Virus record (IMG/VR): IMGVR_UViG_3300010296_000022
Span: 1 to 38,100 of that record
Reading direction: 5' to 3' (one strand)
Source: a virus
Length of the DNA stretch: 38,100 nt
The notes beneath the pieces are model-generated. The model searched no databases. It worked only from the letters and a program-made list of their open reading frames with translations, and was not told the origin of the DNA. The position numbers and the translations under genes were made by a program. This document shows, in pieces, positions 30,381 through 35,809 of this stretch. Position 1 is the stretch's first letter, and each line of letters opens with the position of its first letter.

Positions 30381-30868
30381 ACTTTGTAGAACGGTTTCCC
30401 TGCCTTGATGTCAGCAGGGACGGAGCGAGAGACAGAGTTCCTTTTGGATCTTCCAGCAAGGATGATCTCAGTCATGATCTCATCCCTCTCCTCCTTATTA
30501 CTATTACTATATATATTATCTCTATTAGTTAGTGTCCGTCCTCGCGGACATGTTATATCGTTAACGTGTCCGTCATCGCGGACACGTCGTTGGGCCTTGG
30601 TGTTAGTCATAGAGGCCGACTCTATCGGCTTTCCCTTGCCCCTGGCTAGATAGCAAGTGGATCTGCCTGCCTTTTTCTGGATCAGCCATCCGTGTTCAAC
30701 CAGGGTTTTCAGAGCTTTCCACAACCGGGTCTTACACACTCCGATCCTCTTGGCCATGGTTCTCTTGTCGTCGAAGCAGCAGCCCCTCATGCACACGTAG
30801 AGGTAGGCCTCCCTCTCGATAAGAGAGAAGCCCACCTCATAGATGTGTTCAGGGACCCTTGGGATCAT
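30377..30868 (-). CDS. Winged-helix replication initiator candidate (lambda O-like)
   Basis: A 163-residue protein. Residues about 30-75 form a winged helix (DDKRTMAKRIGVCKTRLWKA, then LVEHGWLIQKKAGRSTCYL). The middle, about 83-125, is low in recognisable structure and is encoded by the inverted repeats and the AT-rich tract described separately. The C-terminal part is basic and ends ADIKAGKPFYKV. A DNA-binding protein just ahead of DnaB, with repeat sites inside its own gene, is the plan of lambda O/P-type initiation. It could instead be only a transcription regulator. It starts with an ATGA overlap with the HNH gene. Confidence 0.65.
   Translation of the reverse strand: MIPRVPEHIYEVGFSLIEREAYLYVCMRGCCFDDKRTMAKRIGVCKTRLWKALKTLVEHGWLIQKKAGRSTCYLARGKGKPIESASMTNTKAQRRVRDDGHVNDITCPRGRTLTNRDNIYSNSNKEERDEIMTEIILAGRSKRNSVSRSVPADIKAGKPFYKV
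30495..30587. other. Candidate replication origin: two iteron-like inverted repeats plus AT-rich tract
   Basis: Two 18-base sites, TGTCCGTCCTCGCGGACA (30533-30550) and TGTCCGTCATCGCGGACA (30567-30584), differ by one base and are 34 bases apart. The second extends to nine-base arms ACGTGTCCG/CGGACACGT. Next to them is an AT-rich tract (about 30495-30532) that could melt. The two copies fall in different reading frames of the surrounding gene, so they are kept as DNA, not as protein repeats. This matches the lambda pattern of iterons and AT-rich DNA inside the initiator gene. An operator function is the main alternative. Confidence 0.6.
30599..30610 (-). promoter_or_regulatory. Dispersed 12-base element, copy 7, inside the initiator gene
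   Basis: Exact ATGACTAACACC on the minus strand, read in frame as MTNT in the initiator protein. It is the only exact copy well inside a gene. It sits 15 bases from the iteron-like repeats, so it may control transcription through the candidate origin. Confidence 0.6.
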
Positions 30869-34468: not shown

Positions 34469-34491
34469 TATAGGGTGCCAAACACCCTATA
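34469..34491. promoter_or_regulatory. Perfect palindromic operator at the RHH gene start
   Basis: TATAGGGTG-CCAAA-CACCCTATA has nine-base perfect arms and a five-base centre, and its last base is the A of the RHH gene's ATG. The core GGTGCCAAACACC differs by one base from the GGTGACAAACACC variant of the dispersed element. It is therefore probably the strongest, symmetrical site of the same protein. A site covering the start codon suggests self-repression. Confidence 0.65.
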
Positions 34492-34682
34492 TGCCTAGTA
34501 TACGTGCCTTGGGTAAAAAGTGTTTGGCGGCTTGGTTAGATGACCGCCTTCTTAATCGCTGGAAAAAGTATTGTGAGAGCCTGGGAATGACCCAGACTGA
34601 TCGACTTGCTCTTCTATTGTCTCAAGATTTGAAACAAGCAGATGAGACAGCATATCGGAAACGTCAACGCCAAGCAAAGTAG
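34491..34682 (+). CDS. Ribbon-helix-helix-like DNA-binding protein (candidate regulator)
   Basis: A 63-residue protein reading MPSIRALGKKCLAAWLDDRL, then LNRWKKYCESLGMTQTDRLA and LLLSQDLKQADETAYRKR. A short strand (KCLAAWL), a helix (DDRLLNRWKKYCESLG) and a second helix beginning with TQTDRLALLLSQDL fit the CopG/Arc fold. The palindromic operator overlaps its ATG, and no Shine-Dalgarno is seen, so it may be read from a message starting near the ATG. It could control the dispersed element. A 57-residue frame lies on the opposite strand. Confidence 0.55.
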   Translation: MPSIRALGKKCLAAWLDDRLLNRWKKYCESLGMTQTDRLALLLSQDLKQADETAYRKRQRQAK

Positions 34683-34725
34683 CGGCTTGGGTAGCCAAAT
34701 TGGTTTGTTGTTCTGTCAATCTCAT
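34552..34725 (-). CDS. Leftward 57-residue frame antisense to the RHH gene
   Basis: ATG at 34725, stop at 34552-34554. The product begins MRLTEQQTNLATQAATLLGV and ends in a serine-rich tail. It starts exactly where the short frame of element copy 9 (MTNTA) ends, sharing ATGA. That is the coupling used throughout this genome. It overlaps most of the RHH gene on the other strand, so both cannot be under strong protein constraint. Either one is unreal, or they form an antisense switch pair. Confidence 0.3.
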   Translation of the reverse strand: MRLTEQQTNLATQAATLLGVDVSDMLSHLLVSNLETIEEQVDQSGSFPGSHNTFSSD

Positions 34726-34739: not shown

Positions 34740-34840
34740 GTAATACGATCCCACAGTCGGGAACGTGCCAATTATTTTTATCTTTTTATCAGACACCCTC
34801 AGACATTTGCTGACCAACCCTAAATTTCCAGGAGGAAAGA

Positions 34841-35809
34841 ATGCACAATGGCATTGTGGGGGTCAGGGGTTCGACTCCCCTCGGCTCCACCAAATTTACT
34901 TCAGGGGAACCTTCCCTTTTTCTCTCCAGCCAAGACCAAAAGGTTGTTGAGGAAATGTGGGAAAACGGTGTCTCCCTCATCCAAGTGTGGTCCGATTGGC
35001 GTCGGTTGTATCTCGCTAGCGATCAGTCAGTCAAGCAATCTGTTCACCTTTTTTTATCCCACCTTCAACAGGCCCACTACAGCCACCGCTATTGCCAAGA
35101 ATTTGGTTATGTCCTGAGACGTCTCAGCCTGTTCATAGATGTTGAGGTCCCCATCTGTCAGGTCTCCACAAAAAGTTGGTGGAGATCTCTGGATGCAATG
35201 AAGGCTGGAGATGCAGCTAGAAGGAAGGTGTCGGTGTTTTTGAACTGGTGTTTGAAACAAGGCTTTATCAAGGAACCCGTCGTAATCCACGGCAAGCCAT
35301 CGATGCCTGATGGCGAGATCCAAGTGCTACCCAATCGAGTTGTTGCCTCGCTTATCCAAAGCTGTCCTTTAGATCTTCTGGGTTACCTTTGGTTGTGTCT
35401 CTGCATGGGGCTAAGAGTGGCCGAAGCAAAACGGACTGAACACCTAGCCCACCGGGATGGTTGCCTGATAGTTGGGGCCTCCGCTGCCAAGACTAGGACC
35501 AGACGAGTCCTAGACATTCTCCCTGGTCATGGGAAATTCGCTGAACTTATCCAGCCTCAGATCAACCTGAAGAAACGTATGCTCGCCCTCAGGGCCGACT
35601 CTGGGATCTCGGACTGGCCCAGGAACTGTATGCGCCACACAGCAGCTTCTCACTGGCTAAACAAACTTCGATCCGCTGAGTCGGCTGCACTCCACCTCGG
35701 AAACTCTCCGGTCATGCTTCACCGTCACTACAAGGCCCTAGTCACTAAGAAGGAATCAGAAGAATTCTTCGCCATCTGGGACGAGGCATTGTCAAGGAAA
35801 TTTGGTTAG
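34841..35809 (+). CDS. int: Tyrosine recombinase / phage integrase with attP in its 5' end
   Basis: A 322-residue tyrosine recombinase. The catalytic set is R192 (CMGLRVAEAKR), K217 (AAKTRTRRVLD), N262-x-x-R265 (NCMRHTAAS), N288 (HLGNSP) and nucleophile Y297 (HRHYKALV). The usual histidines at the first and fourth of these positions are asparagine, a pattern I recall from PVC-group integrases. ATG 34841 follows AGGAGG by five bases, so this start is well supported. Codons 3-17 lie in the 3' half of a tRNA-Ala sequence, the likely attachment site. A crossover there would remove the start and ribosome site from the gene body. It inserts and probably excises the phage. Confidence 0.9.
   Translation: MHNGIVGVRGSTPLGSTKFTSGEPSLFLSSQDQKVVEEMWENGVSLIQVWSDWRRLYLASDQSVKQSVHLFLSHLQQAHYSHRYCQEFGYVLRRLSLFIDVEVPICQVSTKSWWRSLDAMKAGDAARRKVSVFLNWCLKQGFIKEPVVIHGKPSMPDGEIQVLPNRVVASLIQSCPLDLLGYLWLCLCMGLRVAEAKRTEHLAHRDGCLIVGASAAKTRTRRVLDILPGHGKFAELIQPQINLKKRMLALRADSGISDWPRNCMRHTAASHWLNKLRSAESAALHLGNSPVMLHRHYKALVTKKESEEFFAIWDEALSRKFG
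34848..34892 (+). other. attP: Phage attachment site: 3' half of tRNA-Ala(GGC)
   Basis: The 45 bases fit canonical tRNA positions 32 to 76 without gaps. They give anticodon loop ATGGCAT (anticodon GGC), stem 39-43 TGTGG, a five-base variable loop GGGTC, T arm AGGGG-TTCGACT-CCCCT, acceptor strand CGGCTCC, discriminator A and CCA. U at position 70 agrees with the G3-U70 pair of tRNA-Ala. Four of five bases upstream (34844-34847) still pair with the 3' anticodon stem. There is no 5' half, so this is not a tRNA gene but a piece that would restore a host tRNA-Ala on integration. Confidence 0.85.

Follow-up and report, generated by a model that had tools for sequence, protein, structure and literature searches.

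Recombinases that disrupt their own gene have been described as exclusively archaeal and are termed suicidal integrases (2021 review, PMC8371274). In the SSV-type systems (SSV1/SSV2, pTN3 and pT26-2) an attP of 40–50 bp, corresponding to part of a tRNA, lies inside the integrase gene, and integration should part the start of the gene from its catalytic body, with the latter remaining next to the tRNA (PMC8371274). The attP of the Myxococcus phage Mx8 alters the C-terminus of its integrase (PMC6070905, PMC4383910, PMC4701971). The serine integrases of the streptococcal ICEs that target rumA are also bacterial and, like Mx8, have an att site within the integrase coding region that is altered by integration; in both the enzyme is still active, with changed activity. 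The int genes of ICEKp1 and ICEclc are driven by the tRNA promoter or by another upstream promoter depending on the state of the element, and the start of int is kept (PMC13023037). In these elements the promoter that serves int only in the circle lies beyond attP, and upon integration the tRNA gene comes to lie upstream of int. The mycobacteriophage Brujita type of integrase has no arm-binding domain; its attP lies inside a regulated gene, and the gene that is split is the repressor, not the integrase.

The locus described here is part of the IMG/VR viral record IMGVR_UViG_3300010296_000022, of which positions 1–38,100 (38.1 kb, referred to as the window) were analysed. The window encodes a tailed phage gene set with an SU10-type major capsid protein, a terminase-like protein and a DnaB helicase, along with exonuclease VIII, a RusA-like resolvase, a C5 methylase and a PF07486 cell-wall hydrolase, and the last of these indicates a bacterial host. 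Most of the 27 genes tested in it have no Shine-Dalgarno match, hence the phage appears to be SD-poor and its host is probably SD-poor as well. Among known phages and plasmids no close match to the integrase (Int) or to attP was found. It is probable that the 5′ end of int is fused to attP in such a way that integration at a host tRNA-Ala(GGC) gene switches int off. The features on which this proposal draws are as follows.

34830–34835, plus strand: AGGAGG ribosome-binding site, 5 nt before the ATG at 34841 (34841–34843), kept in lineages A and C and absent in B.
34841–35809, plus strand: integrase gene int, 322 aa, a predicted tyrosine recombinase with the motifs GLR...MRHT...LGNSP...HY.
34844–34892, plus strand: putative attP, an identity block covering tRNA-Ala(GGC) positions 28–76 including CCA, within int codons 2–18 (sequence, Rfam, ARAGORN).
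34844–34858, plus strand: anticodon stem-loop CACAAT-GGC-ATTGTG, a perfect inverted repeat that is identical in all relatives.
34893–34921, plus strand: spacer from the tRNA CCA to the first conserved residues (LSxQD), of a length that differs by lineage and compensates upstream offsets.
34922–35806, plus strand: conserved, structured integrase body, residues 28–322 (conservation, structure model).
34955–34957, plus strand: internal ATG (Met39), an alternative start candidate that is not conserved.

The tRNA half comprises 45 bases (34848–34892) that correspond to positions 32–76 of tRNA-Ala(GGC), with a 5′ extension to 34844 that adds positions 28–31 (CACA). Since every length over the 45 bases is canonical and the match recurs in all relatives, it is not a product of chance. 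Joined to a consensus or to a real 5′ half, the bases are recognised by ARAGORN as tRNA-Ala(ggc), and a real tRNA-Ala(ggc) borne by another phage contig, L020, has an anticodon arm and variable loop identical to those of the window. Rfam places the half in the tRNA/tmRNA clan (E 7.6e-13) and ranks the tmRNA model first by virtue of the T-arm, acceptor and CCA; however, the anticodon arm fits that model poorly, and tmRNA as the target is ruled out by the anticodon stem-loop, the variable loop and the match to the tRNA-Ala(ggc) of L020. The inverted repeat of the anticodon stem-loop is likely to hold the core sites of the integrase, flanking the crossover. The placement of attP within the integrase gene had already been proposed from the window alone, and it is the same in all relatives. 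A weak terminator-like hairpin with a T-run follows the tRNA half directly (34903–34917); it is also present in L002, is not conserved in the other lineages and after integration could terminate the host tRNA transcript.

Four scans of IMG/VR, whose queries were the Int protein, an alignment, the anticodon arm and a pattern of catalytic motifs, converge on the same 11 loci encoding close relatives. In each of these (11/11) int has this half-tRNA at its 5′ end; a twelfth contig stops just after the tRNA half. The relatives fall into three lineages. Lineage A (the window, L002, L003, L006 and L007) has AGGAGG followed by ATG or TTG and reads the tRNA in the frame HNGIVGVRGSTPLGSTKF, lineage C (L012, L014 and L021) has AGGAGG followed by TTG and the frame TTMALWGSGVRLPSAPP, and lineage B (L004, L005, L009, L023 and L016) has an ATG without a Shine-Dalgarno sequence and the frame QWHCGGLGFDSPRLHH. 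One tRNA half is therefore read in all three frames, one per lineage, and the resulting peptides are unrelated. From the window it had been argued that the tRNA sequence is under double constraint, as a tRNA and as coding sequence. This idea was dropped because the half is open in three frames and three unrelated peptides are tolerated, which leaves no sign of a coding constraint. The changes that do occur within the half are tRNA-like, with pair 49–65 being A-U in lineages A and C and U-A in B.

The distances on either side of the tRNA half vary in a compensatory manner. Counted in nucleotides from the start codon to tRNA position 32 and onward to LSxQD, they are 7+74, 10+74, 9+75, 17+64, 11+64 and 20+64, and every sum is a multiple of three. 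If the six offset states are independent, the chance that all are in phase is (1/3)^6 = 0.0014, or about 1 in 700. L007 and L012 differ by the deletion of one base on the upstream side of the tRNA and the insertion of one on its downstream side, and the tRNA itself is the same in both. Insertions and deletions on the two sides thus compensate one another, and the phase between the upstream start and the enzyme body is preserved.

Further evidence on the start codon comes from the signals around it. The anti-SD pairing of int (-10.3 kcal/mol) is the strongest among the 27 genes tested in the window, and in both lineage A and lineage C the AGGAGG is spaced 5 nt from the start. Conservation of the protein begins at L28, and from LSxQD onward synonymous changes per site exceed replacement changes, which indicates strong purifying selection on the integrase from residue 28. 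Between the CCA and L28 none of the loci has an in-frame ATG, GTG or TTG. The internal ATG 34955, which had been suggested as a functional start, is ruled out as the start of int as its codon is not conserved: L006 reads ATT at this position and lineage C reads GTC. Taken together, the preserved phase, the lack of start codons between CCA and L28 and the variable codon at 34955 argue that translation of int starts upstream of attP. The sequence-only reading had named downstream starts (after 34892) in all relatives as evidence that would count against it; the starts of the relatives were found to lie upstream instead, in frames kept by compensation and with strong Shine-Dalgarno sequences in two of the lineages, so its claim of a start upstream of attP in the phage form is upheld.

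According to a contrary explanation the upstream ATG is spurious, Int always starts downstream of attP, and the tRNA half lies in a 5′ untranslated region that is open by chance. The half indeed lacks stop codons in all three frames, which makes its openness uninformative, and two further contigs with the same half, L011 and L019, start int downstream of it. However, stop codons separate the tRNA half from int in L011 and L019, while in the relatives of the window six offset states are phase-locked to a start that is preceded by a strong ribosome-binding site in two lineages. A downstream start would also need a codon that is neither present before residue 28, where purifying selection sets in, nor conserved at 34955, and this explanation is considered very improbable.

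L011 (1722–3034) and L019 (2762–3976) belong to other phages and carry the tRNA-Ala(GGC) 3′ half before other integrases with a conventional, downstream int start. As the same half precedes different integrases, tRNA-Ala(GGC) appears to be a shared target.

Int was not matched by direct sequence searches against Pfam, PHROG and PDB. When Int and eight relatives were aligned by hhalign as a profile to a profile of PF00589 members, residues 25–321 matched with a probability of 99.5% (E 6e-23). The leading Foldseek matches are tyrosine recombinases, with Brujita Int first and the integron and lambda integrases also present; the AlphaFold model behind them is of low confidence (pLDDT 51) and poor in the catalytic half, and its use was confined to the N-terminus and to weak support for the fold. 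Homology spans both the core-binding and the catalytic domains. The alignment shows GLR, KT.TRR, MRH and HY to be invariant motifs, with the terminal tyrosine in place. Asparagine replaces the two usual histidines (PRNCMR and LGNSP), as it does in L031, and LGNSP also occurs in L011. By homology, then, the product of int is a tyrosine recombinase.

The N-terminus of Int is distinctive. In the structure model residues 1–28 are unstructured and the first helix begins at residue 30, which fits a tail that is dispensable and indifferent to its reading frame. An N-terminal arm-binding domain is not recognisable. The integrases of L011, L031 and two Akkermansia phages have 50–60 additional N-terminal residues without a counterpart in Int, and for this reason Int appears to lack an arm-binding domain.

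It is proposed that expression of int in the circular or incoming genome would depend on transcription and translation signals located immediately upstream of attP, and that the reading frame would run uninterrupted across the tRNA-Ala(GGC) 3′ half and continue into the enzyme body. Int would then recombine attP with the host tRNA-Ala(GGC) gene, the predicted attB, probably within the anticodon stem-loop. Wherever in 34844–34892 the crossover took place, it would fall between the start codon and the conserved body, and the geometry of 34841–34892 thus bears out the earlier claim that any crossover in the block parts the ribosome site and the start from the int body. The 5′ half of the host and the 3′ half of the phage would restore the tRNA gene with the int body directly behind it, without a proper start, while the far end of the prophage would receive the start codon, the ribosome site and any promoter, together with the GGACA-N5-TGTCC palindrome that lies upstream of int. 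One end of the prophage would accordingly show the LSxQD...QVW integrase body within about 30 nt of the CCA of a tRNA-Ala(GGC), and the other AGGAGG-(A/T)TG-CACAATGGC...CCA followed by host DNA. Integration would thereby silence the integrase and give the reaction a direction. An integrase without an arm-binding domain and accessory factors would need such a direction, and the loss of its own expression would supply one.

Shut-off is favoured by the generic tRNA-Ala 5′ half, which supplies no ATG, GTG or TTG in the frames of lineages A and B and only the anticodon-loop ATG in that of lineage C, as judged on a consensus tRNA and not on that of the host. Two observations speak against it: lineage B has no Shine-Dalgarno sequence, and the ATG of lineage C at tRNA positions 32–34 would survive integration in frame. 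A sigma-70 promoter scan of the window found no site, and by eye lineage B shows a TATAAT-like box ahead of the start. Some Int could still be produced in the lysogen from read-through or from a weak start within the gene. Since attL and attR were not found and integration was thus not seen, we infer the shut-off from the arrangement of the locus.

No attL was found among the 16 IMG/VR contigs with the anticodon arm, and neither IMG/VR nor the genome scan yielded an attL, an attR or a lysogen, every locus being in the attP form. This would also be expected if the half-tRNA were a relic or decoy and the phages did not integrate at this site. Against such a decoy stand the retention of the half down to the CCA in all relatives, its tRNA-like variation at pair 49–65 between lineages A/C and B and the strong purifying selection on the adjacent integrase, and it is scarcely credible.

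Alternatively, integration could act as a state-dependent switch, with int being expressed in the lysogen from the host tRNA-Ala promoter and from a start within the tRNA or the gene (GTG 34856, ATG 34955 or the anticodon-loop ATG of lineage C) to give a shortened enzyme that excises the prophage. ICEKp1 provides a precedent (PMC13023037), the structured Int body of the model would remain intact after integration, and persistence requires that the phage excises. The ATG 34955 of the window has a weak anti-SD pairing of -6.2; yet the GAGGA concerned is just 2 nt from it, and no internal start is conserved across the lineages. Moreover, the transcript would be severed by tRNA processing and, in the window, would meet the weak hairpin after the tRNA. 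A switch of this kind is regarded as unlikely.

With silencing of int as the preferred reading, the locus shares with the archaeal SSV-type systems an attP of similar length and origin inside the integrase gene and a body that would stay beside the tRNA, and the resemblance pointed out in the sequence-only reading is one of the same geometry (PMC8371274). That reading also called the arrangement unusual for a bacterial phage, which agrees with the exclusively archaeal distribution given in the review (PMC8371274). Unlike the archaeal enzymes, Int has no match to Phage_integr_3 (PF16795) in a Pfam search and its host is bacterial, and the cut lies almost at the start codon, so that a few unconserved residues and the expression signals would be lost and not an N-terminal domain. 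Whereas the Mx8 and rumA ICE integrases are altered at the C-terminus, here attP sits in the first codons of int, whose start would be removed. In ICEKp1 and ICEclc int is translated from a start of its own that lies downstream of att; here the start and ribosome site would be displaced and no conserved start lies downstream of attP. The Brujita-type integrase is similar in that Int, too, appears to have no arm-binding domain. The integrases of L011 and the Akkermansia phages, tyrosine recombinases of the GNSP type, have a body homologous to that of Int, but in L011 the gene begins downstream of the same tRNA half. In the open-access literature, a limited test of novelty, no bacterial phage was found whose int loses its start on integration, and a self-disrupting int geometry in bacterial viruses would be new with respect to its description as archaeal only.

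The host is probably a member of the Verrucomicrobiota, a lead suggested by the best named relatives of L011, which are Akkermansia phages; a literature search for Verrucomicrobia prophages at tRNA-Ala found nothing. The sole match in the genome scan is a viral contig, L025 (NZGJ01000009.1), that is binned in the Rhodospirillaceae MAG MED687. An alphaproteobacterial host was rejected, as only 1 of 289 alphaproteobacterial genomes carries the tRNA half within 3 mismatches and in the MAG the half is found only on the viral contig. L025 is likely to have been misbinned into a class without the tRNA target of the phage.

The region upstream of int contains three further conserved features.

34491–34682, plus strand: small conserved ORF upstream of int, without a match in Pfam or PHROG.
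34552–34725, minus strand: small ORF of 57 aa divergent from int, with counterparts in all lineages and no significant family match.
34802–34815, no strand assigned: imperfect palindrome GACA-N5-TGACC with the consensus GGACA-N5-TGTCC, a conserved element before the start in every lineage.

The two ORFs overlap by about 130 nt and both have counterparts upstream of int in the three lineages. The product of the first is possibly a ribbon-helix-helix DNA-binding protein, as judged by eye only, and that of the second may be a regulator or directionality factor. The palindrome is a candidate operator or recombination-protein site; it lies between the divergent small ORF and int (L012 11355–11369, L004 9920–9934) and is near-perfect in lineage C. 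Related GACAC-N5-GTGTCC palindromes form short arrays, repeated at intervals of 23 nt and located some 4.2 kb upstream of int (L007 5655–5715, L012 7122–7182, L021 1763–1823, L004 5858–5895), and the window has two copies of this type at a 34-nt spacing inside a replication-like gene (30532–30587). Might these arrays be origin iterons or operators?

The furthest-reaching proposal is that Int is a true bacteriophage suicidal integrase, whose integration is one-way in a single lysogen and whose excision needs Int provided in trans by a related incoming phage, and that it arose independently of the archaeal families by losing the arm-binding domain and having attP fused to the start of its gene. 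This is held tentatively, as a possibility deserving attention. Were such enzymes to have originated a second time, apparently by convergence, in tailed phages of bacteria, self-splitting would prove to be a general solution to the problem of integrase directionality, and the splitting of the gene would be tied to the loss of the arm-binding domain and of accessory factors. The arrangement would amount to a simple genetic switch in which int is expressed only when the genome is circular, and how such prophages exit the chromosome would become directly testable. The locus also offers a natural example of a single tRNA sequence that is read in three protein frames at no apparent cost.
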